NCBI GenBank assembly: GCA_964036195.1 | Contig: OZ038458.1 | Coordinates: 5,828,001 to 5,892,000, forward strand | From: Sphaerolaimus hirsutus | Taxonomy: Eukaryota; Nematoda; Chromadorea; Monhysterida; Sphaerolaimidae | Length of the DNA stretch: 64,000 nt | Reading direction: 5' to 3' | Part shown: positions 2,055 to 27,650 of the stretch, piece by piece | Layout of the letters: each line of letters starts with the position of its first letter | How positions within the stretch are numbered: the first letter of the stretch is position 1 | The notes under the pieces: model-generated | Databases searched by the model: none | Told to the model about the DNA's origin: nothing | Seen by the model: only the letters and a program-made list of their open reading frames with translations | Translations under genes and position numbers: made by a program

Positions 2055-2195
2055 TTTTATAGTAGCTCCTAGTTTTATGAAAAATAAAATGACATAGTAA
2101 CCTTAATAGGTTTTTGGGTTTTTGCCAAAGTATTATGTGGGTGACACAATAACCTATATATAAGTTTTGGTTTTCATTTTTTGACATAGTGACCT
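2055..2195. promoter_or_regulatory. divergent promoter A with DR2-type repeats
   Basis: Lies between the divergent genes at 2000 (-) and 2446 (+). A minus-strand TATAAAA is at 2061-2055 and a plus-strand CTATATATAAG at 2154-2164. Around them are three half-site pairs with a 2-bp spacer: TGACAT-AG-TAACCT (2090-2103), TGACAC-AA-TAACCT (2142-2155) and TGACAT-AG-TGACCT (2182-2195). The same pair type occurs in the two Polinton promoters at 14.7 and 27.5 kb. Inferred: binding by a nuclear receptor-type factor. Confidence 0.5.
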
Positions 2196-2445
2196 AATTT
2201 TTCAATGAGGCATACACAATAGATAGCTTGTTAAATAAATTTTATGCAAAAAATACCGTATTTTTATGTTGTCAAAATTCAACGCAGTAAGACACCTTGG
2301 GTAGCATCATTTCCAATGCAGTGAGACACCCTGGGTAGCATCATTAATCATCGACATCGAGCAAAATAAAATGTATTTTAATCGAGATCAGTTACGATTT
2401 TTGATCAAAAAGTGTCAAAAGAAAGTTTTCAAGAAATTTCACAAG

Positions 2446-4242
2446 ATGGCTTTTTTGGAAATGCTATACTTGTTGTTGATTATTTGCACATGTTCTTACA
2501 CCATGGATCGGGGGTGAGTATATAAAATTATAAAAATATTTTTGTTGAACATAAGTTTATTGAAAAATTGCAGCTCTAGAGACAATCAAGATCTAAACAG
2601 ATTGGATCCATTTTTTTTTAATGATTACTCAGGTGTGAAATGGAAATATGATTTTTAATTTTTTCACGTTTTTCGGATATTTTAATACTTACAGATACCC
2701 CAAATCAACAAAATGGAGTAAATATGGCATCACAAGATGACACAAATGTACCACAATCACATGTTGCGACTCAAAATGACAATTCAAGTGCATCAAGTAC
2801 TGGTATTGTAACTTCACAACAATGTCCACAAAATACCAGTATTGTAACTCCATCACCAAGTATGCAGCCACGTTTTAGAATAAATGAAGGCGCATCAACA
2901 TCAAGGCTACCTAATGCTCAAGAAATTATCCCAATTTCGAGTGCTAGAACAACTCTTCGAATAAATGCTAGGGGGAGTGGACTACAAGTAGCATTACCTA
3001 ATAGTGTTGGTAAAATATTATATTTATATAGATATACTTGATTTATTTGAAAATGATTTTCACAGATTTGTATCACGTGTTGCACGGAATGTGGGACCAT
3101 TGAGAGCTGAGCAGCATTTTGGGGTGGAAATGTTTGTTTTTATTTTTCATTCATTTCATTGCTGTTACTTAATTACATGTTAAATTGTAGGCCACCAAGT
3201 TCATATGGTCAACGTGCTATTGCAGTAAATGGCGTATTTAACCAAATTTACTATCAATTTACCCCACCTTTACACCCTAATGGGGCAGTGAATGTAGCTG
3301 ACCACCCATATTTAAGGGGTATGGATCAAAGAATGCTTATATGTTTCAATCAGTATGGGTAAGAAAAATTGCTATAAAATTATTATAAAATATAATTATT
3401 CTTTTTTTGTTGCAGAAGTTTGGGTGAATTATTGAGATCAAGTCAGTAGTACACAAAAATTCTACATGAAAACTAATTGAAATGATGATTTCTCAACATT
3501 TAGGACCCTATTTCACACCCATGAGTTTTCCTCACATTTTAGCTTACTATTCAACACCCATGATTTTTCCACATTTTAGTACCCCATTTTACATTTTAAT
3601 ACCCATTTCACACTTGATCAACTGTCATGAAATAAAACTGTGAAGTGATCATCAATTTAATTAGATTCATGTGGGATTTTTGTGTACTTATTACATAATT
3701 CCAAGATTTGAGGTGTGGACCAGAGATGATGCTAATATATACAACATAGATGATACATCAATTGTCACAGTTTTTGTAAGTTGTCATACAGGGTAACCCA
3801 AAATTGATTTAATTTAAAATTCCCTTTTTTTCAGACACTATATGGTAGACATATTGCACAATTCGCTATGATAATAATGCTTTCAAATCAACAATGTGAT
3901 GAGCAGAATATTATGAGGAGAATTCAAAATACATTAGAAACATTTTCATCAAATAGAGCTATTAGAGAATGGGTTTTCAACTCCTTTTGGTCCCCACCAA
4001 ATCACATTATAAGCATGATTAGAAGATTGATAGACATTTTTGTGAGACCGTCTTCCCCACTAATACATCAATATATTTTATCTAATTTTATTCAGGCAAA
4101 TGGGCATCGTTTCGGCTTAACTAGGCTTACAAATATTTTTCATGTCGCTATGTTTAATTTGGAGAGTGGCGAACACTTGTTTTTGAGTTTTTTGGTAGCC
4201 GTATGGATCCACCACATGATAAATACAATCGATATAATGTGA
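2446..4242 (+). CDS. spliced gene, predicted secreted Ser/Thr-rich protein
   Basis: Unrecognised. The ATG at 2446 begins a hydrophobic signal-peptide-like stretch (residues 3-17). Exons with good phase agreement are 2446-2513, 2574-2632 and 2695-3009, then 3191-3358, 3416-3445, 3706-3775 and 3835-4242. The middle part is Ser/Thr/Gln-rich and the last exon encodes about 135 residues with mixed helical character. Two problems are visible. The exon ending at 3131 fits its downstream neighbour, but the acceptor at 3065 brings a stop into frame; an acceptor at 3106 would restore phase but has a poor pyrimidine tract. Near 4186, at a T run, the open frame stops coding sensibly while the next frame continues to a GTATTT donor at about 4250. 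The gene may be decaying, or my model may be wrong. Confidence 0.45.
3448..3690. mobile_element. short inverted-repeat element filling an intron
   Basis: The ends AGTACACAAAAATTCTACAT and its reverse complement (ending GTGTACT) form imperfect arms of about 42 bp. Between them are several repeats of a CACCCATGA/TTTTC phrase. The element occupies almost all of the 260-bp intron 3446-3705 of the surrounding gene, with the donor GT touching its left end. Confidence 0.6.
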
Positions 4243-5353: not shown

Positions 5354-5376
5354 AAAGGTAGTTTGAGTTTAGTGTG

Positions 5377-6125: not shown

Positions 6126-6176
6126 CGACACAGTTATTTTTACTAGGTAGACTGAGATTTAGTATTTATTTTGCAG

Positions 6177-9164
6177 ATGGACATCAAACTCTCGATTTTT
6201 TTGCTGTTGGCGTGTGTTTGGGCGTGCAGCGGAGTGGTGGATGGCCCATGCGACAATATTCTGTGTAACTGTTTCGGTCATCAAGCGATCTGCAAAGTGA
6301 AAGCGAGCTACGATCTATCTGGGTTCGTTTTTTTATGATCTGAAAAATATCAAAATACCATTTTATAATATTTTGAAAAATATCAAAACACCATTTTATA
6401 ATATTTTAAATATTTTATGCATATTTTTAAAATATTTCAGGTATGTAGCAGACAAGGGCATAAATCACGTGAGAGTGGAGGCTCCATTCGCTCAGCTGTG
6501 TGAAACCGTGCGCAATTTGTTCCCGTCCGCCAATGACTTCTCGTGCTCGGTTTGTTTTTTAATAAAAGCGGATTTTTGATATAAAAATAATATTTTTACA
6601 AATTAAAGCGAATTTTTTATATAAAAATCATATTTTTACAAAAAAATCATATTTTTACAAAAAAAATAATATTTTTGCTTGAAATTTTGATAAATAAATA
6701 TATTTCATTTTAGGCTTTTAGCGGGGCCACCGTGTTCAGCGGCAGCGCCGCGTCCAGCGGCAGCGGCAGCGCCGCGTCCGGCGGCAGCGGCAGCGACATT
6801 GGCAGGACCTTACCCAACCGTCAGACTGGGTCTACTAAGGGAGACGGCTGGATTATTGCGCAAAGGTTCACTGAAATGGTCAGTTTTTAATATTTTACAC
6901 TTAGTGAACCGTATGCATTGCATTTCTGATTGAAACACTACATTATCGGTAATAGTCACTTTTTATCAACTGAAACATTGGGTGCATACTTTACGGTTCA
7001 CCAAGTATAGTATGAGTAAGGTTTCAATGGTTTGGTAAAAAAATAAGAAAAATCCCAATGCAGCCAACTGAGTCTACTTCGGGTTACACTTTGAGTGGTG
7101 GTGATAATGATCATGTTATGACAGAGGGTACCACCACTGTGTTGGTTACAACTGTGTCGTCACCGATCGACACACAGAAGTTCTGTGATTCTTGTGCTAA
7201 GGCGTGCCCTTGTGCAACTTCTGAGCCATGCCCACGGCAGACACCCGCTATTGTTTGGGTGTGTGATTTTTATGAAATGTGGTAAAACATTTCATAAAAA
7301 TATATCATATCGTTTTTAGATTTCACCGCGACCCACAACACCAGCTCCACCACCCACTCCGTGCCCGTCACCCACTCCGTGTCCATCACCCACTCCGTGC
7401 CCGTCACCCACTCCGTGCCCGTCACCCACTCCGTGTCCATCACCCACTCCGTGCCCGTCACCCACTCCGTGCCCGTCACCCACTCCGTGCCCGTCACCCA
7501 CTCCGTGTCCATCACCCACTCCGTGCCCGTCACCCACTCCGTGTCCATCACCCACTCCGTGCCCGTCACCCACTCCGTGCCCGTCACCCACTCCGTGCCC
7601 GTCACCCACTCCGTGTCCGTCACCCACTCCGTGTCCGTCACCCACTCCGTGCCCGTCACCCACCCCGTACCCGTCACCCACCTCGTGCCCATTATTCAAA
7701 CCTTGCATTTGTCAAACTCCGGAGCCATGCATTTGCCAAAGTCCGGAACCTGATGTGCAGGTTTTTTTTGTTGATTATTTTGATTTGTTTTAAAATAAAA
7801 AACATCAATGGATCATATAAATTACCCCCACCCAGAAAATTCTACCCCCCTCACCTTCACTCAAATGTGGGTTTTTTGAAGCTGTGCACATGGTGGTGAA
7901 AGATAAACTTTATCTTTTAAGAATTTGTCAGCAGAAATTCCCACTGTTTTACCCCCCATTGTGAGTCGATCTCTGATGATTTGTTATGTTGTATTTGATG
8001 TTATCACATGGTCGCATTGATGATCAAATATTTTTTGGCAGAACGTCCACTACCACACCGACACCCACTGAAACTACTCATGTGACGTCTGTGGTAAAAA
8101 ATCATGTTGCATATGGCACTGATTCAGTTCACACGGCACCAGTGGCACCAAAAAATGCAAAATTTGATGATGAAGTGGTTGATGTTGAATCCAAGGTATT
8201 TTCCATAAATATACTAAATAGAATAGATTGTCCTATACTAAACCACACTAATATAGTATATAGTTTATTAAATTAAACTGTGTGTGCACGCGCATGTGTG
8301 CGTGCATGTGTATGTCTGTCTTTCCAAAAATTCCATAGAACAATTTAAATTATCATTTCAGCTGGCGCACATGACACAGAATCACGAAGAATACAGCAAA
8401 TTTTTTTCGTGGGTTTACTTGATTGGCATTTTTGTGCAGGCCATATGCACAAATACAACCGGATGGTTTGCATCGACTTTGAAGTATTGGACTTGGGTAA
8501 GAAAAGTTTGGGGTTTTTGGGGTGGGGAGGTGAGAGGGGGGTAATAAAAGTTTGGGGTTTTTGGGGTGGGTAGGGAAGAAAAGTTTTGGGGTCCGGGGTT
8601 CTTGGTGAATGTTGTGGGGGTGAGAAATGGGGGTTTTTGGGTAATTCACGTATGGATGGATGGAGCATTGAGCATAAAATCAAATTTCATTATCTCTACA
8701 CCACATTTCAGTATCTCTACGCTAAAGTCATGAAGAAGGGGAAGTATGCACCTGGCGGCAATGACGAGCCAGCTGGCGATATCGCTATGCGCAAATTCAA
8801 TTATTTGGATACGGCTGAACCGAAGGATTACAGTATCCGCTTTTTGGTAAGTAGTTGTTATTTTAGTGGTATGTTTTGTAGTTTGTGTGGTATGTTTCGT
8901 AAAAGATTACCTAAAATAAGACCCCAGGGGATTTATTTTTCAATATTCCAGGGTTATATTTTAACTACTGTCAGCATCATAAAAATTTCACAGTACTATT
9001 TACAGATTAGTCAAATGTCGCACCAAATGGAGACTATGTCGCAGGATTTGAATATGTTGCGTGGTTGGTCACATTTTTACAATTTGATAGAAATTCAGCT
9101 ATTAAATGATAAAAGCTTGCGCTCTGAAAATGTGCTCACAGATTACTGTTTCCTCAAAATGTAA
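6177..9164 (+). CDS. ten-exon gene, secreted Pro/Cys-repeat protein
   Basis: Unrecognised family, about 555 residues. Exons 6177-6322, 6441-6549, 6714-6878, 7064-7258, 7320-7760, 7932-7960, 8042-8195, 8362-8496, 8712-8846 and 9006-9164 keep one frame; the 29-bp microexon 7932-7960 is inferred because it exactly repairs the phase. Residues 1-18 form a signal peptide, followed by a short Cys-rich module (CNCFGHQAIC), an Ala/Ser/Gly low-complexity stretch, a Cys-containing linker, about 20 copies of the hexapeptide PTPCPS, a second small Cys cluster (CICQTPEPCIC), a Thr-rich linker, an aromatic segment that could cross a membrane once, and a Met/Gln heptad-like tail. Composition suggests an extracellular structural or mucin-like protein. 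Splice sites are good; the final exon and stop are less certain. Overlapping repeat-frame ORFs on both strands are shadows. Confidence 0.6.
7320..7690 (+). repeat. 18-bp coding minisatellite (PTPCPS)
   Basis: About 20 near-identical copies of CCCACTCCGTGCCCGTCA, differing mainly by GTGCCCGTC/GTGTCCATC third-position changes. It encodes the hexapeptide PTPCPS in the frame fixed by the flanking splice sites. Confidence 0.92.
7761..8041. other. intronic stretch with candidate microexon
   Basis: Intron of the secreted-protein gene. A 29-bp candidate microexon at 7932-7960 has a TTGTCAG acceptor and a GTGAGT donor. Nothing else recognised. Confidence 0.4.
8497..8711. repeat. G-rich low-complexity intron
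   Basis: Repeats of AAAAGTTTGGGGTTTTTGGG within an intron; the antisense proline-rich open frame here is a low-complexity artefact. Confidence 0.6.
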
Positions 9165-9619: not shown

Positions 9620-9639
9620 GTTTGAAAGTTTTGGCTGTA

Positions 9640-13680: not shown

Positions 13681-14581
13681 TCATTTGTTGTAAATGTTTA
13701 TTTCAATTTTACTATTGGGAGTGGGGTCGCCATCATCAATGTAAACTACAGTGTTACCGTAACATTTCTCCGTGATACCACCACCACTATCCCCCTCTCC
13801 CTTTGCATCACTGGTAGTAGCAAACTTGTAAAGTATTCCAAAAGGTATAATCTTACGTTTTATATACTGCATTTCATCACTAGCTACTGTTGTATCACTT
13901 AGAGCCGCCCATTGATCGGTTGTAGTATCCATTTCCTCCTGCTCTTTTTGATTGGAGTCATTTTTTTTCATTTTTTTCACCTTTTCAGTTTGTGGCGCTG
14001 GCGGCGGCGGCGGCGATAATAATTTAGTAGAAGGTTCTTTTTGGGTATTTGGTACCGGCGGTAGGGGCATATCTGGTGGCGGGGGGATGTTCAAATTGGT
14101 GGGCCGTAGCAGAGGCCCCGGGCGCTGGCTTTTCGGGCGCCTCGTCGCTCGGTCTATATCGGATTGCTTCAACCATTTTTTCATGCCGTATACGGCACTG
14201 GTGACACAACCTTACTTGTACTAGTACACTGTCATCTGAATACAATTTAGACTGCAAAAATTTTGTTCTAGTTTCACATGTTTTACATAAAGCGAAAGAA
14301 AGAAATTTAAATGAGAACATTGTCACGAGGGGAAAATTCATTTTTTTCTTTTGGTATACAACCTCCTTGGTACTTCTACCGTACACACCCGCATACGTAC
14401 CTTCATTTGGTACACCCACACACGCACCTTCATTTGGCAAGTTTTCTGTTACAAACTGCTGATGTTCATATCCGCCGCCATCATTCGAATCTTCATTCAT
14501 GTTGTTGATCCCTTGTTCAAGTACGGTACCGGCGGCTTTGCCTGCCGCTGTGGCCAGCTTTACAGCTGCGTGTGCTGCCAT
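13681..14581 (-). CDS. proline-rich protein, two overlapping frames
   Basis: Unrecognised. One frame starts at ATG 14581 (MAAHAAVKLATAAGKAAG) and runs to 14024; a second frame, +1 to it, runs from ATG 14184 to the TGA at 13681. Frame 1 has an Ala-rich helix, a charged Gly-rich part and a possible zinc-binding pair CKTC-x24-CHQC. Frame 2 has a proline-rich tract, a Lys-rich stretch and a compact C-terminal segment. A GTAAGG donor at about 14209 and acceptors near 14145 or 14118 could join the frames, as could a GTTGTA donor at about 14350. TATAAAA lies at 14739-14732 on this strand. It diverges from the dUTPase-like gene across promoter B. The upstream CAGCAT-type repeats (14600-14690) have no ATG and look like leader. 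Confidence 0.45.
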
Positions 14582-15007: not shown

Positions 15008-15042
15008 GAACACCCATTCACTCATTCAGTCATTCATCGGCA

Positions 15043-16031: not shown

Positions 16032-16544
16032 TTATTTGTGTATAACATTTCTAGAACCAGTAGACAATTTCTCCATTGGAATTGTCTTGAAAAGTAATAA
16101 AAATAAATCTTTAATGTTATGTCTTTTTATGAGAGAAATTGTTTGCAAAACTACATGCTTAGATTTTATCACCGTATCACACATTAACATGATTTTCAAA
16201 AATACGAGGGCGAATAAGCCGCATGTATCTGCAGCTTTGTTTTGTATCACATTTTCATTTATTGAAAAAATACAATTGTGTGAAAATTGCATTTTTATAT
16301 CCTTTATTACTCGCTGTGATAAATTTTTCCTACCAAGTGAATCAAATATGAATATATGATTGTGTGCAATTCTATATAATGAAATAAAATGTCCCCACGT
16401 GACTTCTGGGTAATTTAAGAAGCAAACAGCCCCTTTACCCACAAAAATTTTACCAATTTCGCCATCATCTAAATTAATGCATTTTACACTATTTTTCAAA
16501 ATCGAATCTTCACTGATTATTATTTTGATGTCTAGCACCTCCAT
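16032..16544 (-). CDS. adenain-like cysteine protease of the Polinton
   Basis: 170 residues from ATG 16544; the open frame extends upstream through a Glu run without another ATG. The family triad order His, acidic, Cys is visible: WGHFISLY holds the catalytic His, FDSLG the acidic/loop region, and QNKAADTCGLFALVF the Gln oxyanion residue and nucleophile Cys followed by Gly. This is the adenovirus protease/Ulp1-like fold used by adenoviruses and Polintons to mature capsid proteins. It is the last gene of the minus-strand block, immediately after the capsid gene, and is convergent with the small gene at 15734. Confidence 0.82.
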   Translation of the reverse strand: MEVLDIKIIISEDSILKNSVKCINLDDGEIGKIFVGKGAVCFLNYPEVTWGHFISLYRIAHNHIFIFDSLGRKNLSQRVIKDIKMQFSHNCIFSINENVIQNKAADTCGLFALVFLKIMLMCDTVIKSKHVVLQTISLIKRHNIKDLFLLLFKTIPMEKLSTGSRNVIHK

Positions 16545-16594
16545 GACATCCTCCTCCTCCTCCTCCTCCTCCTTGTTCAATCACCACGTTGCTA

Positions 16595-17995
16595 CTAGTA
16601 ATTGGCGTTCGATAAAATAGTGCGGTCAGCGTGTAAATGTAATGACGCAATTGAAAAACAATAGACCAAAATGACTAAACCGTCAGCGGGGATAGGGTTA
16701 TGAAATGAAAAATCGAGACCTAGAGAACCGACTGAAAATAAATCAGACATGGAATCATCAACTTTACATACAACGGGGTCAAAACTAAGTGCAAACATGT
16801 TGCTTTTGTACTCTGAAAATGTAAGATTATTTTCCACATTGAAATTTTTCCTCAAACTACGGCATAATTCTCTAAATGCTAAAGCATATCCGCGGTCGGT
16901 TGCGTTAGCTGCATCGGTATCGAAGAAAAAGGGTACTAGTGGGTGCCGGGCTGCACCAAATAGCATAGTTGCACGTTCAATTTTATTAGTTGGAAAACTA
17001 AATTTCGCTTTAGCGACATCTTGAGTTAAATAATTATCACCACTTAACATTTGTACTATACAAAAACTAGGTAATTTTCCTACATATATAGCTTGTTGAG
17101 ATGTTTGTTTTAAACCACCAGGTACATTAACCCGTATGACTCGCGTATTAAGGAAATGAAGTTTGAGAGGGCGAGTTAAAGCCGCCTTCTCCACGGCGAC
17201 AGCGCACTCGGCACTAGGTTGCAAATGTAATGCAAACAATTGAATTCTCTTAACTCGAATTTTATAATCTCTTACAATATCTACTAGAGTTGGATCGAAA
17301 CATTCCAGACAAAATTGATCACTATGCCTTACTAATTCGAATGTAAGGCTGTAACCGGCGGGCCAGTAGCGACGGGTTGAAAAAAGATCCAATGCTAACT
17401 TTGAAAAAGTTATACATGTTCTACTATTATTTATTTGTTGCGCTCTTTTTATGAAAGTTGCACTATCATCATTTCTAATTTTTGTATAATCTTCATTGAA
17501 AAATCCTTCTACCTCTAACTCTTTGTAGGTTTTATCCTGATTTGTAAGTAATTTATTTTTCATATGTACTAAATATGAATAATTGTCTGTGACATCAACG
17601 AGTAAAGCATCTTTACTAAAAAGTTTTACTGTACGCCAACAGGTAGCACCAAAACCGGGTATTAATGCCACCTTATCATTCAGATTTACTTGCACATCAT
17701 CAACGGTTATTATGGCGGGGATGTCGGTTCCATTAGCATTGACTACTTGAAATTCCATGCGAACAAAAACATTTGATAAATCTACATAATATTGACTCGA
17801 ATCTAATGTCCACGTCCATGACGTGTTGAATTCGTTGTGTTGTATAGATAATGGTATTTCTAAAAGTTGCGATTGGACAAATGTGGCATCTATTTGAGGA
17901 GCTGAAAAATATGATAGCTCCGCAGGTGTCACAAATGATGACGTTGGATCAGCCTTCTGCTTTAAAATAGTCGGGTTGAAATGTGGCTGATCCAT
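16595..17995 (-). CDS. major capsid protein candidate (double jelly-roll)
   Basis: 466 residues from ATG 17995, intact. No short catalytic motif is expected; the assignment rests on length, beta-rich composition, position between protease and core/penton-like genes, and resemblance to Polinton/adintovirus hexon-like capsid proteins: an N-terminal segment with TWTLDSSQYYVDLSN, a central region with many aromatic and beta-branched residues, and a hydrophobic C-terminus. Such proteins form trimeric pseudo-hexameric capsomers. A profile search of the translation would be decisive. Confidence 0.7.
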   Translation of the reverse strand: MDQPHFNPTILKQKADPTSSFVTPAELSYFSAPQIDATFVQSQLLEIPLSIQHNEFNTSWTWTLDSSQYYVDLSNVFVRMEFQVVNANGTDIPAIITVDDVQVNLNDKVALIPGFGATCWRTVKLFSKDALLVDVTDNYSYLVHMKNKLLTNQDKTYKELEVEGFFNEDYTKIRNDDSATFIKRAQQINNSRTCITFSKLALDLFSTRRYWPAGYSLTFELVRHSDQFCLECFDPTLVDIVRDYKIRVKRIQLFALHLQPSAECAVAVEKAALTRPLKLHFLNTRVIRVNVPGGLKQTSQQAIYVGKLPSFCIVQMLSGDNYLTQDVAKAKFSFPTNKIERATMLFGAARHPLVPFFFDTDAANATDRGYALAFRELCRSLRKNFNVENNLTFSEYKSNMFALSFDPVVCKVDDSMSDLFSVGSLGLDFSFHNPIPADGLVILVYCFSIASLHLHADRTILSNANY

Positions 17996-18082
17996 CTATA
18001 TTAGCTGTAGATGCCGCCATTATTAATAAAAGTATAGACTCAACTGACTAAAAATTGCGATTGATCAATCATTTATATATAA

Positions 18083-18511
18083 TTAGCGGGGGAACACTGG
18101 AATCGTTACTGGGAACTTCTTTTTTGAATGTTTTTTACGACCTTTACCTTTCCGTCGACCCATACCTTTTGATAAATTTTTCCACATATTTAAGCGTTTA
18201 CGCCCCCGCCGTCGACCCTTACCCTTCGCTTTACTACCTTTTCCAATAACTTGATTATTTTTCTTCTTCTTTTTTCTTTTATTCTTTACATTTTCATCAC
18301 TTTTGATAGGTACTTGATTTTCAGTAGTTACAATAGGTTCAGCTAAAGACCTAGTAATGTGTATGTCGGGTGCTCCCAACCCCACCATACCCATAAAATC
18401 AGATTTTTTTTCAATATCATTTTGGTAAAATGATGTATCTGGCATTTTAAAAACTCCATAATTATACCTATGTAATTTAGCGCACTCTGCTTCGGCTATC
18501 GGATTATCCAT
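18083..18511 (-). CDS. basic core-like protein
   Basis: 142 residues from ATG 18511. The N-terminal half is acidic to neutral; the C-terminal half is strongly basic, with runs such as KNKRKKKKKNN and KGKGRRRGRKR, interspersed with Gly. This is the composition of DNA-condensing virion core proteins (adenovirus VII/X-like) and it lies between penton-like and hexon-like genes, 1 bp from the upstream gene. Function inferred from composition and position only. Confidence 0.6.
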   Translation of the reverse strand: MDNPIAEAECAKLHRYNYGVFKMPDTSFYQNDIEKKSDFMGMVGLGAPDIHITRSLAEPIVTTENQVPIKSDENVKNKRKKKKKNNQVIGKGSKAKGKGRRRGRKRLNMWKNLSKGMGRRKGKGRKKHSKKKFPVTIPVFPR

Positions 18512-18512
18512 T

Positions 18513-19526
18513 TTATTGCAACAATGGTCTTCTTCTAATGATTAAAGACAAAAATATTCTAGTATTCGGAAGCAATTTAACGATGGATCCACACTCGTGA
18601 AATAGCGAGAACTGTAATCTATTAGTGTAAACTGAATCAAATGGAAAAAATTTCAACAGATTTGGTTTAAAATCAATGTTTTGGACAACTTGTGTATCAC
18701 TCAAAGCGATATTCCCTAATGACACCTTATTACGACCAAATAAAGTTTTTTGAAGTGAAGAAACTTCAGCTATATATAGTTGCTGACAACCACGAAAGTA
18801 ACCCAAACTTGGGTATACAAATGCCCCATTTTCAAGTAAATTACTACCTATTGAAAGTAAATTTTTCAGCGGTTCTGATATAAAAATTTTTAAAACATTT
18901 GATTTGATAGTGAAACAATTATCACCGCCATAACATTGATTAAATTCCAATTTGGGTGGTTGTTTGGTTATATCCTCTAACTGCTCAGATTCTATTTCTA
19001 TTAGTCGATCTTGGAATGACACCATAGCATCCGTATAATCGTATATTCCGTAATTATGATCTCGTAATTCTTCAAATGGTGTATGGCTATATTTTGCCCT
19101 CTTTTTTTTCGAAACATTGATACTATCAAAAAATTCACCCCAATATGCACCAATTTCCTTCATCAACTCTGACAAGTTTTCACATTCTTGAGCGTCATTG
19201 AATGCGTCCTGAATACATTCTATCACATCTTGATTACTGGGTAACTTGAGAAATTTTTTTCCAGACATGAATGTGGAAAAATTCAACTTTCCAATATAAA
19301 ATTTACCATTATAATCATACACGAGAAAATAATTTGACATTTTATTTTCCAGAACATGCTCTGATCTATCTAAATGTGAAAATGACAATGACGATATTGA
19401 CATTTCCCAATTTTGTGACAAATTAAATCGGATATTGCTAGGAAAATTAAACACCATATTAGCTGCTTCTTCATTATTTGGCTCTAAAGCTAAATCTATG
19501 TGGTATTCACTAGATTTGACTTCCAT
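18513..19526 (-). CDS. minor capsid (penton-like) protein candidate
   Basis: 337 residues from ATG 19526. The N-terminus (EYHIDLALEPNNEE) and a beta-rich pattern with NFPSNIRFNLSQNWEMSISS resemble the penton-type minor capsid proteins of Polintons and adintoviruses, which fill capsid vertices. There are no catalytic motifs. It overlaps the upstream membrane-protein gene by 17 bp and precedes the basic core-like gene. A structural search for a single jelly roll would test this. Confidence 0.55.
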   Translation of the reverse strand: MEVKSSEYHIDLALEPNNEEAANMVFNFPSNIRFNLSQNWEMSISSLSFSHLDRSEHVLENKMSNYFLVYDYNGKFYIGKLNFSTFMSGKKFLKLPSNQDVIECIQDAFNDAQECENLSELMKEIGAYWGEFFDSINVSKKKRAKYSHTPFEELRDHNYGIYDYTDAMVSFQDRLIEIESEQLEDITKQPPKLEFNQCYGGDNCFTIKSNVLKIFISEPLKNLLSIGSNLLENGAFVYPSLGYFRGCQQLYIAEVSSLQKTLFGRNKVSLGNIALSDTQVVQNIDFKPNLLKFFPFDSVYTNRLQFSLFHECGSIVKLLPNTRIFLSLIIRRRPLLQ

Positions 19527-19857
19527 TTTTATTTTGGAGACGATGCTGGTCCACCGGTAAAGTGTTTTCTACAATTTTCAAAAATGTCTGAAAAATTTCA
19601 ATAAACCTTTCTTCATTAGGTGATGATGTAAATTTTTGTGTCGTCGCTAAAGTCGTCAAATAAATCAGTACAATAATTATGATCATGCACTGCGTAAAAG
19701 ATATTCCCAATTGAAAAATTAGCTTTTTATTTATTGAACATTGGTTTTTCTTCTCTATATTGCCCATAATTAATGGTTCAACGGTGGTCTTTTTATATAC
19801 CTGATCATTCATGATTGTTGATTCTGTTGCTGCCATTTTCCTCGTTAAAACCGGCAT
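19510..19857 (-). CDS. single-pass membrane protein
   Basis: 115 residues from ATG 19857 (a second ATG lies at 19836). One strong membrane segment, about residues 48-70 (LGISFTQCMIIIIVLIYLTT), separates a short basic N-terminus from a polar C-terminal region with heptad-like Phe/Leu/Ile. It overlaps the integrase gene at its start and the penton-like gene at its end. Polintons and adenovirus-like elements often encode a small membrane protein near the capsid genes; its role is unknown. Confidence 0.6.
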   Translation of the reverse strand: MPVLTRKMAATESTIMNDQVYKKTTVEPLIMGNIEKKNQCSINKKLIFQLGISFTQCMIIIIVLIYLTTLATTQKFTSSPNEERFIEIFQTFLKIVENTLPVDQHRLQNKNGSQI

Positions 19858-20875
19858 TTATAAGATCCTCAGCGTAATAAACCTTCGGTAAAATTTCCGA
19901 AAGATCTGGTTCTTTTGAAATGTGATATGTGTATGGAATAAAAGTATCTTTTATTTTTGCTATATAATATATATTTGATGAAAATTTTTGATCTGTCGAT
20001 TTCCCAAATGTTTTATGAATTCTCACTCTCACCGGATCTTTTAATGCAAACTTTATTTTTGGTCTTTTACTCTTTGGAATATGTTTAATAGAACCACGTT
20101 CTAACTTGGGTTTGAAACGTTTTTCAAAAATTTCTCTATCATCTAAAATTGTTAACTGAATTGGCGCCTTGTTATTTAAATACTTTCGAGGTGTCCTATT
20201 GATTGAATCTACAATTTTTGATAATGCAAAGTAGTAACGTCTATGTTTTGTGGTTGCATAAAATCTAGCCAATTTCATTCTTATTGTAGAAATCACTTTT
20301 TCAACTGGGGAATTCTTTTGATAAGATGCTAATGGTGTAAGAGTGATCCTTTCATTTTGTAAAAATTCTGTAAATTGCTTACTCAAAAATTCAGCAGCAA
20401 AATCACAAAAAACTGTTTCTACCGAACCACCTCTAGCTTCAATCTCCCTCAATATTTCTTCAAATTTTTTTGTAATATGATCAGCTGATTTATTTTTACA
20501 TATTCTAAAATGTACCATGTCTGAAAACGTATCGACTGCTAATAATACTGCTGTATTCCCATAATTTGTTTTTGCTGGACCCAAAAAGGCTAAATCTATA
20601 CTAATACAATCATATAAACCGGTACTAATTACGGGACGTGTAAATCTAGATTTTTTGGCCTGTTTGGCGAATACGTACCCTGGTTGATTTTTCAACCAAT
20701 CATTCACTTGCTCACGTTTAATTTTTTTATCATGTTTTTTTACTTCATTGTACAAGACTTGGCCACGTGATAATAACCCCTGCGTAATTTTACTCGCATT
20801 TATTTTACCCCTTTTATACCTACCATACCATATATATTTCAGAAGTGATTTTTGTTTTTTTGTCAAGTTCGCCAT
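19805..20875 (-). CDS. Polinton integrase (DDE, retroviral type)
   Basis: 356 residues from ATG 20875. The rve-type catalytic core shows its triad: Asp in ISIDLAFLG (about residue 96), Asp in VFCDFAAEF (about residue 158) and Glu in SPVEKVI (about residue 193), with the usual spacing of the last two. The N-terminal part is basic and helical (KKQKSLLKYIWYGRYKRGKI); the C-terminal part (KFALKDPVRV onward) resembles the SH3/chromo-like tail of these integrases. It would insert the element with a 6-bp target duplication, typical of Polintons. Intact frame, so the copy may be young. Confidence 0.85.
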   Translation of the reverse strand: MANLTKKQKSLLKYIWYGRYKRGKINASKITQGLLSRGQVLYNEVKKHDKKIKREQVNDWLKNQPGYVFAKQAKKSRFTRPVISTGLYDCISIDLAFLGPAKTNYGNTAVLLAVDTFSDMVHFRICKNKSADHITKKFEEILREIEARGGSVETVFCDFAAEFLSKQFTEFLQNERITLTPLASYQKNSPVEKVISTIRMKLARFYATTKHRRYYFALSKIVDSINRTPRKYLNNKAPIQLTILDDREIFEKRFKPKLERGSIKHIPKSKRPKIKFALKDPVRVRIHKTFGKSTDQKFSSNIYYIAKIKDTFIPYTYHISKEPDLSEILPKVYYAEDLINAGFNEENGSNRINNHE

Positions 20876-21885
20876 TTTTGTTGAAACCAACCAATCGTGC
20901 GTTTTATACGCGGCGGCGGCGGTAATGTGCGACTCCGCCCTTTACCAACTTTTTTCTTACTGCTGCTGCTGCTGAGTAAATCTTTCAGTTTTTGTTCATG
21001 TGTAGCGCGCGTGTGCCTTTCATGCTTCTGTATATATTCTGTGAATTCATCAAACCCAACTGGTGGTGGAGTAATTTTTGATTTACGGTGAAGTCGCCTT
21101 TGAGCTAAATAGCGTAAAATTTCAGAATAATTTGTTTGGAGTAAAGGTCTTTTTTGAGAAGGACTGATAATTTGATTTTGAATATTAACTGGGATTTTGT
21201 TTTGAAATTTAGTATGAAATTTCTTCATTTCCTTTATCACATTTGGTGAATCATCCGTGTTCAGTTGTAACTGAGGTTTATTAATATTTGGTGATAAAAT
21301 TTGTAAATTTTGATCTGGTTCATCTGGTTCATCATAATTTAATACTCTTCTAATTGAATCTTCATGGGGTGGTGTTGAATCTTCAGGGGGTGGTGTATGT
21401 TTTACATGTAATGTTGTTGTTTTTGGTGTTAGTTTTATTTTACTATACTTTCGAGGTCTACTTTTCAACACTGACTGATACAATGATAATGCTCTCTTTT
21501 TAGGTGCATTTTTTTGGGGGCGAGCTTGTGTAACCGGTGGTGTGAAAAATTGTTGAGGGGATTCATCTTTAGGAGGTTGTTGAGAAGGAGGTTGTTGAGA
21601 TGAGTTCTGATTAGGGGGTTGCGGTGACATTTGTTGCGTTGGTGATTGTGGTGTTTGAGTAAATAATTTACTTTCATCCGCATTTTTAGAACGTAAAACT
21701 GTTGAAATTTTGTTTCTAGCTGCAATTAATAAATGAAGTTTTTGTCTTTCTGTCAATCGTTTACTATTTATTATCTCATTTATCACATTTTGCAATTGTT
21801 CTTTACCAGTTTGATGATCTACAAACTTTTTCAATACATATTTAAAATCATTTACACTTAAATTAGACTTGTGATGGGTATCCAT
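20863..21885 (-). CDS. Pro/Gln-rich element protein, unknown
   Basis: 340 residues from ATG 21885. The N-terminal 70 residues look helical and folded (NDFKYVLKKFVDHQTGKEQL); residues about 75-140 are Gln/Pro/Ser-rich low complexity; the rest is basic and Thr/Pro-rich, ending in a Lys/Arg-rich tail with a Ser run. It overlaps the integrase start by 13 bp and the upstream gene's stop lies just before its ATG. Role unknown; it could be a DNA-binding or scaffolding protein. Confidence 0.6.
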   Translation of the reverse strand: MDTHHKSNLSVNDFKYVLKKFVDHQTGKEQLQNVINEIINSKRLTERQKLHLLIAARNKISTVLRSKNADESKLFTQTPQSPTQQMSPQPPNQNSSQQPPSQQPPKDESPQQFFTPPVTQARPQKNAPKKRALSLYQSVLKSRPRKYSKIKLTPKTTTLHVKHTPPPEDSTPPHEDSIRRVLNYDEPDEPDQNLQILSPNINKPQLQLNTDDSPNVIKEMKKFHTKFQNKIPVNIQNQIISPSQKRPLLQTNYSEILRYLAQRRLHRKSKITPPPVGFDEFTEYIQKHERHTRATHEQKLKDLLSSSSSKKKVGKGRSRTLPPPPRIKRTIGWFQQKWRT

Positions 21886-21887
21886 CA

Positions 21888-22238
21888 CTACAAAATTTTT
21901 GAAACTGCTTTGATAAGTAATCTCATCAAATGCAATGACGCGTGTCTTATAAGTAACTTTCTAGCCCTTTTTATAGATTGACAAGCTGCTAATAACTTGA
22001 TAATGGGTAAAAAATATTCTAATGAACCTTTAACTGATGTTGTAAACATCTTTTTTAATTCACTGTTATTTATCACATTATAGCATATATCTAAAATTGA
22101 ACATATCACATCTTTACTAGTTTTTTTCAAAAAGCGCTTTAATTTGGAATCACTATCTTTTGCAACCATTTTTTCCAATTTTCTTTGACATTTTTTCACT
22201 CTAGGGACTACCCTTTCACTTCCAGATGCCGTCGTCAT
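21888..22238 (-). CDS. small basic conserved-type Polinton protein
   Basis: 116 residues from ATG 22238. Basic N-terminus followed by a helical pattern: VICSILDICYNVINNSEL, then KLLAACQSIKRARKLLIRH and a Leu-rich end. I recall small Polinton-associated proteins of insects with the layout 'Asn-rich helix, Lys/Arg helix, LL ending', and this one fits loosely; the function of that group is unknown. It overlaps the ATPase gene by 4 bp. Confidence 0.6.
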   Translation of the reverse strand: MTTASGSERVVPRVKKCQRKLEKMVAKDSDSKLKRFLKKTSKDVICSILDICYNVINNSELKKMFTTSVKGSLEYFLPIIKLLAACQSIKRARKLLIRHASLHLMRLLIKAVSKIL

Positions 22239-22981
22239 TTTTGTGACACTGTAAAATAATTTTCACTATTTTCTCCCAAATTGCTGGCTGCAATATCGTA
22301 TATTATTTGGTGACCTCCTTCTCCTTCCTGAAATATATTTGCTCTAGCCTGTAAAATTGGGTTTGAATTTTGAAATGAAACCATTAAATACCCATACGGG
22401 TTTTTAATCGCATCGATATAAGCTTGTATAAATCGTCTCTTTTGTTCAGATCGACCAAACCAGCTTGAGCCAAGATTTTGAATAACGTGTTCAGTTGGGT
22501 ACCTAAATAATACTAAATATGAACAATTTCTCCTAATCACTTTTGAACTATGATCCAAAAAAGGATCATGCGATTGTATTAATACTATTAATTTTTGACT
22601 GTGACTAACCGTATTAGTAATAAGTCTGTTTGTGTACCATCTCGGCAATACTAATTGCATGTCATCAAATACAACAATTTGGGCCAAATTTGAATCTTCC
22701 AATGATGTTAAAGATGGTACTTTGTTTCTCTCCAATATTTCCACTTTATCTGGGTATTGACTTGTCAATTTCTGGTAAACTGGGTGATTATATTGATTGC
22801 TGCTGGAACATATCAAAACTTTATCTGGTAGGGAGTCCAAATTTAGTGATCCATCCAAAGCGGCTTGTACGAATTTTAAACAAAAATTACTTTTTCCCGA
22901 TTTACTGGGACCAATAATTAAATATGATTGACCGTAATTAGCAAACTGAACGTCATTTTCATTGAAATATCTATCACCCAT
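22235..22981 (-). CDS. packaging ATPase (FtsK/A32-like)
   Basis: 248 residues from ATG 22981, chosen because it is the first ATG and overlaps the polymerase stop by only 8 bp. The Walker A motif is IIGPSKSGKS (about residues 20-29) and Walker B is QIVVFDDMQLV (about residues 100-110), followed by an Arg-rich C-terminal half. These are the marks of the viral genome-packaging ATPase family conserved in Polintons, virophages and poxvirus A32. It would power DNA translocation into capsids. Intact, in the minus-strand morphogenesis block. Confidence 0.85.
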   Translation of the reverse strand: MGDRYFNENDVQFANYGQSYLIIGPSKSGKSNFCLKFVQAALDGSLNLDSLPDKVLICSSSNQYNHPVYQKLTSQYPDKVEILERNKVPSLTSLEDSNLAQIVVFDDMQLVLPRWYTNRLITNTVSHSQKLIVLIQSHDPFLDHSSKVIRRNCSYLVLFRYPTEHVIQNLGSSWFGRSEQKRRFIQAYIDAIKNPYGYLMVSFQNSNPILQARANIFQEGEGGHQIIYDIAASNLGENSENYFTVSQK

Positions 22982-25900
22982 TATAATGCGGTAATTTTCC
23001 AGAATACCCCCACGGAATTGAATATGGTCTGTCTCCAAACCAATAATGATACCGTTTTTTCAATTGAAAATGAACCTTCTTATTCACTGTACTGGTCGTA
23101 ATCGATGTCAAACTAGGGTTATTTCTAAATTGAAGATTTTGAGTATTTAATGAATATGGTGCACACAATTGTGGTGAGAAATATGAAATCAACTGTTTTT
23201 TTAGTTCATTACTCTGTAATAAATACTTATTTATAGATGTCATTCTCACCCCTTTTGCCTTTAAAACTGTATATGCATTGTTCGGGTCAATTTTTTTCCT
23301 ATATGTCATTGAATAAAACTTATTTGCTATACCTATGAATTCACTCACAAATTCTTCATCTAAAACTTCTGAACTCAATTCACCTAAAAAACCTGGATTG
23401 GTTTTAGGGTGAACAAAACCACTAGAATTATTAGCCACATAATAACAAGAATCTGTATCAGAATATAACAATTGATTATAAGAAAACTGTTCCAATAATC
23501 GTTGTAAAATTGAACGAGAATAACTAGTAATATATAATGCTAAAATTAAACATGAATTGGTTGAATTTTGTGCATATTCATTAGCAGTTTTAACTTTTAC
23601 TCGAGCTACATTTTCATTCATTATGAAAATTTCATCAACTTCATTTACTGTCGAAAATACCGTATTCATAAACTTTGTAGGGTCCTTAATAAATACATAT
23701 TTAGACTTTTGAGTGTTCAAACCCAACTGTCCATATGAACTATTGAGTAACAATTTACATACCTTAGTTTTTGCTGAATTTTCTTCAAATTTATCAGGAT
23801 CTAAATAACATTTCTCTATATATTGAAATTTTTTACAAAAATCCAATTTTTCTTGGTAATTTTTAAAATTATGCTTGGCTGATAAAACTTTTAATGAAAA
23901 AATTTTATCTATAAATGTACTGAAAACACCTTCTGTAGGTGACTCTGGAGTCCATTGAGATACATTATCATAAATTAATGCTTCATATACTTGCACAATT
24001 ACATAATTTCTTTCCAGCGCCATATTTAAGCAATTTACAGACCAAGTTCCAAACATTTTTCTTTGTTTATTTGTACATGTGCAAACATATGAGCCGTCTG
24101 GTGGGGGTAATTTTTGTTTACCCGTCACATATTTTTTTGCGCAATTATAACACAATGTGTAAACTGAAAAATCACCAATCTTAGTTGGGAGACACGGAAG
24201 TAATAAATTACTTGGCGGTAAAATATCCAATTGCAAAACACCAGCTGTAAATGGTAATTTTTTTCCAGTATACCCTGTTAAAAATTTGAGCTCTTCCTGT
24301 GACATTACTCTTGGTGCCATAATTGGCATAGGAAACTTTTTCATAGCTGCAGGGTACATTGAAACAATATCTATAGCATTTATTGTATTGTCTTGATTAA
24401 ATTTTAGTGGTAAATTATCACAGAATAAGTTACCGTTAGGGTTTGTACTAGCAAAACAGTTGAAAAGCTCTGTTCTGCCCCCAAAAAAAGCATCCCTCAT
24501 ATTAAGAGGTGGTCTAACCTTAGTTGCATTAAAAATTTTTGCAAATTTTTGACTGTTACGCCTCAGTCTATCTATATCACATGTCCACCAGGCTTCAACT
24601 CGCTTACCTGTAACATGTTCAATCATACTTATCCTCCGCATTGTATTATTGTAATTTTCTTTGTGTGTTAAATGGGACTGCCTAAATTTACCATGTCTAT
24701 GTGATTCAAAACAACGATTACAGCCGTGCACTGCACACCCTAAAAATTCTCGATAAAAGTCTACATCTTTTTTTTCAGCGTCTTTATACACCACACAGTC
24801 AATTTTAAAATTTCTATAAACATTTGTTTGATAATCAAAACACGTAACGACTTTTTCTCCACCTTGGGACCTCGAATATTGAATATATGGATTTTGATAA
24901 TATTTTGATATTGCTACAATGCTTTTCAGAGCCCAAATTGATTGATTATCATTGACACTAAAACTATTATGTGGTGGAATATGAACTACAATTGACGTAT
25001 CCAAATGTTGAGACTTCCATATAAAATTAGCTAATGAACTAAGACTTTTGGAATTTAAATGGGGGATTATTTTAAAAATATCAAAAATTTCTTTAGAAAA
25101 TTTACAAAATGCCTCTTGCAATACTAAAACATCTGATTTTATATATTCGTAACATTCTTTTTTAATGTCAAATTCTCTCATTTTATTTGATTCATACCAC
25201 TCCATGAATTTTTTCTTATCCTCATCCTTCATATTATCTACATCATAAAATTTAACTTCTGGTAAAGACTCATATTTTTCAAATAAATTGTGTTCCGTAA
25301 TTATACCATGTGGGAAATTACCTTTCCTAACCTGACAATTAAATGCCTTACCAACTTGACTCAAACTCATTGGGAAATATTTTAATGAACACTGAAAACT
25401 TATTTTACTATTCAACCGCATATAAAAAATCCTACGAGCATTAGACAATAAAACATTGGGAATTTGACCATTTTTTATAAAAATTGAAAGAATCTCACAC
25501 AGATCAAAGCTCAAATTATGAGCAATAACCATTAAATTTGTATGTCTTTTGTGGTCCATTAAAAAGTAGTAAAAATCTCTAATAGCATTTAATCCATAAA
25601 AAAATTGGGTACACATTTCGCATGTGTCACACGCATTTTTATCAAAAAAACATTTGTTACATCTTTTTACGCAATAAACGGCATATGTTGAATGCACCTT
25701 CCGTACCACAGTTGTCTTGTCTGCGGTACCCCAATGTTGTTCCATCTCTGAGGTGGTTTTTTGAAAAGTTTCAGTATCATAAAATATTATTTCAAATTTT
25801 CTACCTGGATTCCTATATTCATATGGAATTGGTTTCTGAAAAAAACATTCAAATTGATGCTCTCTAAAAGATTTTTCTCTTGGTACATACTGTTTACAAT

Positions 25901-27446
25901 AAGTACATTTAGTAAAACCACAATTTTCATGATTTTGTGATAAAATTATTTTTTTGTTGCATGTAAGACAAAACTGAACACATTGACACACAGTCAACGG
26001 TTGACAATTTTTATCCTCCTCCAACTTTTGTATATCGCCATCATTCACCGCATTCTCCTCATCTGAAGTATCTGGGTCACATATTTTGGTGATTAAATAG
26101 TTTGATTTATCTGGATAGAAATTTTTAAAATGATTTTCATAACATGATTTGCTGTAAAATGATCTATTACATGATCTACATAATATTGTATTTTTTCCTT
26201 TATCTATAGGGCAAATTTTTGAAGCAAAACACATGGGGCAAGCTGATTTTGCGCATCTACATGATATATTTTTGTTAAAAATTACTTTATTACAACAGTC
26301 TGTTACACGGTAACAATTTGCCAAAGTACTAATTGATCTAATGAGAATAACGTGTTCATTATCATGTAATAAATCAATCCAGGCAATTTTCTTACTACTT
26401 GTACCGTAAGGTGATTCTTCATGGGTAAGCTCAATGCCCCCATCTTGAATAGTCCAAACTCTAACCCCATATATAATTTGTTTTGAAACAGGTGGAAATT
26501 TATTTATTGCTTTGGTTAAAATTTTTACATTGTGAATTAAATCAACCCTGTGTCTAATATAATTGAAAGTGTTTGTAGAGAAATCAATAAAAGCATTTAC
26601 ATCTTTTTCAAGTAGAGCATATTCACCCCTTTTATTTCTCCTTTTATATCTTTTGAAATAATTTATTTTTCTGCAAGCTACCGCTATCAAATTTTGACGT
26701 CCCATGAAAATACATGTGGCTAAACACTGATCCCTGAGTGAATAAATTTCAGGAGGGTTGTATAATGCACGTTTATGATATGCTATCTTAGCTTGTAAAT
26801 CTGGTAAAAGTTTTGTTAATGAATTGAATCCTTTTGCAACCATATTTTTCTTTTCAACAGTTGTTATATTAACTGAAAATCCATTTAATAAATTATCATC
26901 TTCTAATCCTGCAGATTGAAAAATCATTTCGACCCTATTCAATATAGATGCAATTGAAACATGTTGTATATGAGTAATTTTAGATAAAATGTAACCGCGG
27001 TCAAAACTTTTGGACATTACTTTGATACCAATGTACAATTTTTTATTTTCGTCATCATCTTTGTCAGAGAAAAAATCCATATAAACCCTTTCCAAACATT
27101 TGGCTAAAATGTATTCCAAAAAAGTAATAGGGTCTTTTATCACATCTTGTAAATTTTCAGCAAAAGAAACATTATATACATAATAATTAGTGTAAAATTT
27201 ACCATTTTTTTCTAACCATGGTTCTTCAATTTTATACAAACTTTTCCATTCAGGTTCAGAAATTTCAATTTCTCTTATGCCATCTTTAAGATGTTCATAA
27301 TGTTTATTCAAAGTTACCTCTTCAGTAGTTTGTGTATACTCAATTTCATCTTCATTTAACTCCTCTGAAGAAAACTCTACAGACCCATTGTCTGCTTCTG
27401 GTGGGGGGCTGTCAACCAGCTTGTATTGTTGCTCCTGCTCATCCAT
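22974..27446 (-). CDS. protein-primed family B DNA polymerase
   Basis: 1490 residues, uninterrupted. Exonuclease motifs: IIFYDTETF (about 553-561), AHNLSFD (about 642-648) and YIKSDVLVL (about 768-776). Polymerase motifs: DIVSMYPAAM (about 1025), KLLLNSSYGQLG (about 1230), YSDTDSCYY (about 1327) and KAKGV (about 1395). Between about 385 and 535 are many Cys/His pairs (CRCAKSACPMC, CRSCNRSFYSKSC, CQCVQFCLTC) that look like zinc-binding modules. The acidic N-terminal part (about 1-330) could hold the terminal-protein region but shows no motif I recognise. Replicates the element by protein priming. TATAAAA lies at 27492-27486, about 40 bp upstream of the ATG at 27446. Confidence 0.92.
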   Translation of the reverse strand: MDEQEQQYKLVDSPPPEADNGSVEFSSEELNEDEIEYTQTTEEVTLNKHYEHLKDGIREIEISEPEWKSLYKIEEPWLEKNGKFYTNYYVYNVSFAENLQDVIKDPITFLEYILAKCLERVYMDFFSDKDDDENKKLYIGIKVMSKSFDRGYILSKITHIQHVSIASILNRVEMIFQSAGLEDDNLLNGFSVNITTVEKKNMVAKGFNSLTKLLPDLQAKIAYHKRALYNPPEIYSLRDQCLATCIFMGRQNLIAVACRKINYFKRYKRRNKRGEYALLEKDVNAFIDFSTNTFNYIRHRVDLIHNVKILTKAINKFPPVSKQIIYGVRVWTIQDGGIELTHEESPYGTSSKKIAWIDLLHDNEHVILIRSISTLANCYRVTDCCNKVIFNKNISCRCAKSACPMCFASKICPIDKGKNTILCRSCNRSFYSKSCYENHFKNFYPDKSNYLITKICDPDTSDEENAVNDGDIQKLEEDKNCQPLTVCQCVQFCLTCNKKIILSQNHENCGFTKCTYCKQYVPREKSFREHQFECFFQKPIPYEYRNPGRKFEIIFYDTETFQKTTSEMEQHWGTADKTTVVRKVHSTYAVYCVKRCNKCFFDKNACDTCEMCTQFFYGLNAIRDFYYFLMDHKRHTNLMVIAHNLSFDLCEILSIFIKNGQIPNVLLSNARRIFYMRLNSKISFQCSLKYFPMSLSQVGKAFNCQVRKGNFPHGIITEHNLFEKYESLPEVKFYDVDNMKDEDKKKFMEWYESNKMREFDIKKECYEYIKSDVLVLQEAFCKFSKEIFDIFKIIPHLNSKSLSSLANFIWKSQHLDTSIVVHIPPHNSFSVNDNQSIWALKSIVAISKYYQNPYIQYSRSQGGEKVVTCFDYQTNVYRNFKIDCVVYKDAEKKDVDFYREFLGCAVHGCNRCFESHRHGKFRQSHLTHKENYNNTMRRISMIEHVTGKRVEAWWTCDIDRLRRNSQKFAKIFNATKVRPPLNMRDAFFGGRTELFNCFASTNPNGNLFCDNLPLKFNQDNTINAIDIVSMYPAAMKKFPMPIMAPRVMSQEELKFLTGYTGKKLPFTAGVLQLDILPPSNLLLPCLPTKIGDFSVYTLCYNCAKKYVTGKQKLPPPDGSYVCTCTNKQRKMFGTWSVNCLNMALERNYVIVQVYEALIYDNVSQWTPESPTEGVFSTFIDKIFSLKVLSAKHNFKNYQEKLDFCKKFQYIEKCYLDPDKFEENSAKTKVCKLLLNSSYGQLGLNTQKSKYVFIKDPTKFMNTVFSTVNEVDEIFIMNENVARVKVKTANEYAQNSTNSCLILALYITSYSRSILQRLLEQFSYNQLLYSDTDSCYYVANNSSGFVHPKTNPGFLGELSSEVLDEEFVSEFIGIANKFYSMTYRKKIDPNNAYTVLKAKGVRMTSINKYLLQSNELKKQLISYFSPQLCAPYSLNTQNLQFRNNPSLTSITTSTVNKKVHFQLKKRYHYWFGDRPYSIPWGYSGKLPHYNG

Positions 27447-27485
27447 ATTTTGCGTTTGATGGTTTCATTGTGGTGAGGAGGTGTG

Positions 27486-27650
27486 TTTTATACCTCTGAA
27501 TATAGGTCATCATGTTGCGAGTGGTTGTTTGATTTTTAGGTCAGTAGGTCACTGTCTAGGTTACTGGGTCACTTTCTAGGTTAGTAGGTCGCTATATAGG
27601 TCACTGGGTCATTGATGAAACTTCTGGGGTTGAAAAATTCTATATATAAG
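27486..27650. promoter_or_regulatory. divergent promoter C with four DR2-type repeats
   Basis: Between TATAAAA (minus, 27492-27486) and CTATATATAAG (plus, 27640-27650) lie four AGGTCA-like direct repeats with a 2-bp spacer and a 20-bp period: AGGTCA-GT-AGGTCA (27538-27551), AGGTTA-CT-GGGTCA (27558-27571), AGGTTA-GT-AGGTCG (27578-27591) and AGGTCA-CT-GGGTCA (27598-27611). The layout matches promoters A and B. Confidence 0.65.

Follow-up and report, generated by a model that had tools for sequence, protein, structure and literature searches.

Polinton (Maverick) elements and adintoviruses are the closest described counterparts of a virus-like element that we analysed in a 64 kb stretch of DNA, hereafter the window. 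Like them, the element combines a polymerase B gene with integrase-like, protease-like, ATPase-like and capsid-like genes, and on these sequence grounds it is a Polinton-like element, present in multiple copies and equipped with three divergent promoters (A, B and C). We know of no account of what switches on Polintons or adintovirus-like elements in animals, and the listings by which the literature was surveyed show no code of host transcription factor sites in the promoters of such elements. The element in the window differs from its counterparts in having a putative code of this kind, formed by arrays of AGGTCA-like direct repeats with 2 bp spacing (DR2). It also differs in that no terminal inverted repeats were found: no such pair was seen between 1–16 kb and 26–36 kb, nor among the 25 listed of the 39 inverted pairs in the window.

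The use of host transcription factor sites by mobile elements is of a known kind. Hepatitis B virus enhancers, the human immunodeficiency virus long terminal repeat and Alu repeats (in the form of DR2 sites) all place host nuclear-receptor sites in parasite promoters. The element shares such half-sites with them, but here the site differs between clades of a single element group in a single genome, a Nuclear Factor I (NFI)-type site replacing DR2 in some. The promoters of the Mavirus virophage, a Polinton relative, likewise have a short motif in common, which copies the late motif of the giant-virus helper; the reader there is the helper virus, whereas the motif here resembles a metazoan receptor site. 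The homologous regions of baculoviruses carry host basic leucine zipper (bZIP) sites and are also repeat arrays in a virus genome that are read by host factors, but the repeats described here are direct, of receptor type, and lie within promoters, where their distance to the TATA box is mostly fixed. The putative promoter code described here would be a variant of this known kind.

The DR2 units match RevDR2, the site type of the Rev-erb/E75 receptors, and are predicted sites for such receptors. Two reports describe RevDR2 as half-sites separated by 2 bp, the 5′ one of which is flanked by A/T-rich sequence, and state that the NR1D1 homodimer holds RevDR2 more stably than the monomer site (PMC10712084; PMC7086371). 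The RGGTCA half-site, the 2 bp direct repeat and the A/T-rich 5′ extension are common to our units and to the RevDR2/RORE sites of Rev-erb (NR1D) and ROR (NR1F) receptors. The units described here differ in forming arrays of 2 to 19, some of them overlapping 8 bp runs, and in that the promoters which contain them belong to a virus-like element and not to host genes; the match is one of sequence.

Direct repeat arrays and TATA boxes of the window

The original prediction described three, seven and four DR2 units in promoters A, B and C, and all were present by direct reading, motif scan, weight matrices and shuffles; the observation is confirmed, and is stronger than first claimed. Array A (2090–2195, minus strand) comprises units at 2090–2103, 2142–2155 and 2182–2195, with the AGGTCA polarity leftward. 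Array B (14770–14972, minus strand), also of leftward polarity, has units starting at 14770, 14803, 14836, 14869, 14899, 14930 and 14959. The four units of array C (27538–27611, plus strand; 27538, 27558, 27578 and 27598) follow a 20 bp period and point rightward, away from the polymerase gene. A degenerate DR2 at 27503–27517 (plus strand) has AATATAGGTCA as its first half-site.

A scan allowing up to 2 mismatches in 12 positions gave 16 DR2 matches in the 64 kb on both strands, 13 of which were array units. The three matches outside the arrays lay at 3198, 62509 and 27718, the last within a minisatellite. Unit 2142 of array A has three mismatches and is therefore absent from the 16. Weight matrices were trained on two arrays with the third left out, and all window positions on both strands were ranked. 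The units of array A ranked 9th, 14th and 15th, and a single site outside the arrays (62508) was in the top 15; those of array B ranked 3rd–5th, 11th–13th and 17th, and those of array C 6th, 10th, 12th and 15th. Between one and three non-array sites were interspersed at lower ranks of these leave-one-out matrices. The paired-unit pattern had six matches in the window, versus none in each of 100 dinucleotide-preserving shuffles.

The units are in part tandem copies. The first four units of array B are 33 bp tandem copies (95% matches) and so are not independent, and array C is partly a 20 bp tandem array. Array A has a single good unit; it is absent from the list of tandem repeats, yet carries the motif. 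Counterparts of the seven-unit array B occur at loci L008, L016, L017 and L034 elsewhere in the genome, and the same array as C at L012, L018, L033 and L036–L039.

TATA boxes that point outward from the arrays or overlap them had also been predicted. Outward-facing boxes do flank B and C to the left and to the right, and a box faces leftward at A. The leftward boxes, on the minus strand, are TATAAAA at 2055–2061 (28 nt from array A), TATAAAAA at 14732–14739 (30 nt from array B) and the TATAAAA box of the polymerase gene at 27486–27492 (45 nt from array C). On the plus strand, TATATATAAG at 27641–27650 faces rightward 29 nt from array C, and TATTTAAG at 15001–15008, a weak TATA-like box recognized by reading, faces rightward 28 nt from array B. 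The rightward TATA box of array A overlaps a DR2 unit. Across the genome, a TATA box lies ahead within 120 nt in 23 of 29 distinct arrays, many of which come from near-identical copies, and its distance is 28–30 nt in 17 of these 23. Inside one family the array length ranges from 7 to 14 units while the 28 nt gap to the TATA box stays constant. The gap behind the arrays ranges from 21 to 74 nt.

Promoter motifs among the copies of the element

The genome searched comprises 348 Mb in 762 contigs, and at least 32 stretches in at least 31 places matched the polymerase gene. Thirty of these 31 places were fetched, 28 of them free of inner stop codons, and 800 nt upstream of each copy was scanned. 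Upstream of the polymerase, 19 of the 30 copies had DR2 arrays, with 4 to 19 units each, and none of the 30 polymerase genes contained a DR2. By the original prediction, related Polintons without the repeats would count against it, and this is in part the case, as the other 11 copies have no upstream DR2 and carry other motifs.

The repeats follow a strict grammar. In the 19 copies, 127 AGGTCA-type repeats had a spacing of 2, and none a spacing of 0, 1 or 3–8. When a looser second half-site was allowed, 32 promoter stretches yielded 167 repeats spaced by 2 bp and 10 spaced by 6 bp, all of one polarity, and no inverted, everted or opposite-polarity repeats at spacings 0–8; the pattern used is blind to array A, which has variant second half-sites. 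Unit statistics drew on 49 loci of the genome and on the window up to 31 kb; five loci that had only one or two DR2 units and lacked element proteins (L007, L020, L021, L025 and L028) were left out, as were four (L009–L011 and L014) that overlap L008 and L013. Of 61 distinct leading units, 44 had the A/T-rich extension WAWNT exactly before the first half-site (offset −5), whereas each of nine further offsets tested gave between 0 and 8; of the 29 sequence clusters to which these units collapse, 18 had it, versus at most 4. The second base of the spacer was T in 90% of units. The predicted likeness to RevDR2 is borne out in spacing, polarity and WAWNT extension. The unit period differs by family (33, 31, 20 or 8 bp) with the motif kept.

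The full motif WAWNTRGGTCANTRGGTCA occurred 115 times genome-wide versus 4 times for its reversed control, and plain TGACCTNNTGACCT 170 versus 65 times, so the density within the arrays is not that of the genomic background. A chance origin of the arrays is ruled out by the matrix ranks, the shuffles and the count of 115 versus 4. Among 100 places listed for the full motif, 68 lay within 35 kb of the 31 polymerase copies (about 0.6% of the genome), 15 at other loci with element genes, 9 in Polinton-promoter-like DNA on contig C3 and 1 in a homologue of the promoter A region (module A, described below) on contig C4. In all, 93 of these 100 were in or near element-like DNA, and the remaining 7 were at C9:11.42 Mb and on contig C363.

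Both of the latter loci are rich in DR2. Two loci on C3, L026 and L027, likewise consist of DR2-rich, promoter-like Polinton DNA with several TATA boxes and have no match to the element proteins tested. All four are possibly promoter fragments or parts of another element.

Eight of the 11 copies that lack DR2 upstream of the polymerase carry TGGCN5GCCA palindromes. The palindromes match the NFI site, which has the form TGGC-N5-GCCA. The eight copies held 41 TGGC/GCCA palindromes at spacing 5 and none at spacings 0–4 or 6–12; two copies have one perfect palindrome each, and in all eight the first palindrome lies 11 nt from the polymerase TATA box. The other three copies (L061–L063) have a third motif, ATAAAATTTWA, with three sites per copy. 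No promoter among the 30 copies combined two kinds of motif.

On a tree of 28 polymerases (omitting L038 and L058, which have inner stops, and the copy on contig C438), the promoter labels cluster, needing three changes versus a minimum of two. The DR2 label takes two changes on this tree, yet its starred branches force only one, and DR2 may therefore have a single origin. Genes to the right of the promoter are common to the DR2, TGGCN5GCCA and ATAAAATTTWA classes at 30–70% identity, as judged from 11 representatives, of which L046 and L051 had no homologous open reading frame (ORF) within 1.5 kb. These shared genes indicate that the promoter input changed while the genes stayed. The different host-factor-like sites at the same position suggest that the families with DR2 and those with other motifs plug into different host control circuits.

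The NFI-type pattern TGGCAWNNWGCCATG was found 340 times genome-wide versus 14 times for its reversed control. Among 100 places listed, which extend up to contig C3, 11 were in the polymerase-upstream promoters of the three copies on C1–C3 that carry NFI-type sites and 89 were elsewhere; none was at promoter B distance in those three copies. The sites away from the polymerase copies may belong to another repeat or be real host NFI sites.

Candidate readers of the arrays

The host genome contains thirty exon-level matches to the nuclear-receptor DNA-binding domain. A ROR/HR3-like domain (L065) has ROR-gamma as its best solved match (E 2.3e-33). An E75 domain query gave identities of 86% over 22 residues and 83% over 53 residues in two adjacent stretches; the next-best matches, at other loci, reached 69% over 60 residues and 76–77% over 26–34 residues, and the ROR-like exon 64%. 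Both groups of RevDR2/RORE readers, E75-like and ROR/HR3-like, thus seem to be present in the host. Further domains are presumably those of NR4A (L066), RXR (L067), COUP-TF (L068) and an HR96-like receptor (L069), as named by likeness. The NFI DNA-binding domain (PF10524) matched three places in the host (best E 1.1e-22), and PF00859 matched neither the host genome nor any of its 14 control genomes.

We propose that host NR1D and NR1F receptors probably, on balance, control the Polinton-like element through the arrays, which would be promoter-proximal sites for Rev-erb/E75 and ROR/HR3 receptors. We base this on the DR2 grammar, the WAWNT extension, the polarity, the TATA spacing, the retention of the motif across families, its concentration in the genome and the receptor domains of the host. 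In mammals, NR1D1 represses (PMC10712084), and RORs activate through the same sites (PMC7086371). By analogy, an E75-type homodimer would repress and an HR3/ROR-type receptor would activate at the same sites of the element, such that the polymerase and accessory genes might be switched together by host physiology, be it developmental stage, haem or gas state, or daily rhythm. Related families would have swapped the DR2 input for another site, mostly the NFI-type palindrome, at the same position and before homologous genes. We also entertain, tentatively and with more doubt than conviction, a broader scheme in which the families are split into regulatory niches by an exchanged promoter code: RevDR2, with haem- or gas-sensing E75/HR3 as the latency switch of an endogenous virus, or NFI, or a third factor, with homologous genes and layout kept.

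The analysis thereby offers a concrete promoter code that points to a named group of host receptors and has natural replacements in sister families. If true, the proposal predicts when and where Polinton-like elements wake, provides a series of natural variants in which the evolution of promoter inputs can be followed, and would represent a rare case of a receptor site type almost private to a mobile element.

Several observations weigh against control by NR1D and NR1F receptors. Half-sites deviate in several units (ATGTCA, AGGTTA), 11 of the 29 unit clusters do not have WAWNT, and 6 of the 29 distinct arrays have no TATA box ahead inside 120 nt; where there is one, 6 of the 23 distances are 17, 17, 34, 35, 80 and 98 nt. 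The 11 of 30 polymerase copies without upstream DR2 count on the same side, as do the 5 of 24 loci read in which one or two units occur without any element protein. The full motif is more exclusive to the element than plain TGACCTNNTGACCT, and the near absence of the full motif from host DNA implies that the host itself hardly uses the exact site. Finally, the NFI-type motif, unlike RevDR2, is common outside the copies and, among the places listed, was not seen at the promoter B distance of three copies, leaving a joint switch of all promoters unsupported.

The near restriction of the full motif to element-like DNA would suit a family-specific regulator, encoded by the element or by a helper virus, that binds the arrays and co-evolves with them, the RevDR2 likeness being convergent. 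Such a regulator would yield the mutually exclusive, family-specific motifs that we see. None of the accessory ORFs tested matches a family above its cut-off, and the ORF to the left of array B (14024–14581, minus strand), with homologues 49–99% identical beside array B elsewhere, bears a CxxC..CxxC stretch. We nevertheless regard this explanation as rather unlikely. Half-site, spacing, 5′ extension and polarity together fit a known receptor site, and the motif found instead of DR2 matches, at spacing 5 only, the site of a second known host factor. Moreover, the accessory genes to the right of the promoter are shared by the three motif classes, so their products do not change with the motif.

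A different host receptor could also read DR2, such as a partnered RXR, a RAR-like or a COUP-TF-like receptor. DR2 is a RAR/RXR site, and the host has domains resembling RXR and COUP-TF. These receptors are not known to need a WAWNT extension or a T before the half-site, whereas the A/T-rich flank defines RORE/RevDR2, and the arrays have both WAWNT and a T before each half-site. We therefore give this alternative a low probability.

The original prediction tied the arrays to ecdysteroid signalling, so that they would be response elements coupling the element to moulting. E75 is named for its induction by ecdysone; HR3 is ecdysone-induced in insects, and the host has E75-like and HR3-like domains. 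The ecdysone response element is an inverted AGGTCA repeat with 1 bp spacing, and no such EcR/USP-type inverted repeats were present at spacings 0–8 in the 32 promoter stretches. The host mir-1 gene (56892–57012, minus strand; Rfam 49.1 bits) argues in the same direction, as its product ends in GTAG, unlike the usual arthropod ending. By the titles of the publications concerned, the GGAG form belongs mostly to the arthropod literature (27 of 30), whereas the five with the GUAG form deal with nematodes (three, Trichinella among them) and birds (two). Given this ending, the host is probably no arthropod. The mir-133-like hairpin of the window argues against a nematode, and the host is most likely a non-arthropod bilaterian. 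An ecdysteroid role for the arrays is accordingly improbable. What stands of the predicted interpretation is the RevDR2 type of the sites, their recurrence among the copies, and the E75-like and ROR/HR3-like domains of the host.

The suggestion that the arrays are passive minisatellites without function, in keeping with the partly tandem arrays B and C and a region rich in minisatellites, is very improbable indeed, as the motif outlasts the changes in unit length, keeps its polarity and mostly its distance to the TATA box ahead, and is present in array A, which is not a listed tandem repeat.

Gene content and surroundings of the element

The DNA polymerase B gene (22974–27446, minus strand; 1490 aa; PF03175, E 4.3e-35) is transcribed away from array C. 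To the right of this array lie accessory ORFs starting at 27928, 28316, 28694 and 29178 (27928–29828, plus strand), the first two of which have homologues in further families of the element, likewise to the right of the promoter. A dUTPase-like ORF to the right of array B (15043–15405, plus strand; PF00692, E 0.017, below cut-off) is conserved beside array B in other copies. Its product seems to be split into overlapping frames at 15043–15405 and 15350–15679, and both pieces occur in other copies. A tandem-repeat protein is encoded to the left of array A (1305–2000, minus strand), and a distant match to it (41.5%, E 1.2e-6) lies beside a DR2 pair at L029.

Protease-like, putative capsid, integrase-like and ATPase-like ORFs occupy 16032–22981 (minus strand), with Pfam matches below curated cut-offs: rve for the integrase-like ORF (E 7.6e-5; 23.3 bits, cut-off 32.6), Peptidase_C5 for the protease-like ORF (E 0.003), and generic P-loop matches only for the ATPase-like ORF. 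The capsid candidate has one homologue, named F54H12.2-like (21% identity, E 6e-10), and its fold model, with a predicted local distance difference test (pLDDT) score of 38.5, is too poor for use. Capsid and polymerase queries found no relatives in viral_contigs, where the polymerase alignment gave one weak match, to a 316 kb contig. The paired-unit pattern matched five contigs of that collection, all of them tandem repeats by reading (four 8 bp runs and one with a 45 bp period), and these were rejected.

Module A (2000–2760) recurs at C1:24093368, C1:31881824, C7:17639788 and C4:26984568, twice at 100% and twice at 67–68% identity. Of the copies at 100%, one lies about 7 kb and the other about 14 kb from another array B counterpart of the same family, and a copy at 68% lies about 12 kb from a third such array; this recurrence marks module A as part of the element. 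The proteins at promoter B next to the 68% copy are nonetheless 90–100% identical, and the contrast suggests that the left arm has been exchanged between elements.

The element (12.9–29.9 kb) adjoins the host gene mind bomb and lies upstream of its exons, which start near 31.1 kb on the plus strand and include three Mind bomb SH3 pieces and ankyrin exons. No N-terminal mind bomb exons were among the ORFs scanned, so the element probably sits inside an intron of this gene. Long minisatellites with periods of 24, 18 and 16 bp were observed at 1508–1943, 7351–7690 and 27711–27843, two of them within open frames and one in the accessory-gene leader. A mir-133-like hairpin (40195–40309, minus strand; 38.8 bits, below the gathering score of 55.5) and mir-1 both lie on the strand opposite to mind bomb, between or beyond its exons.

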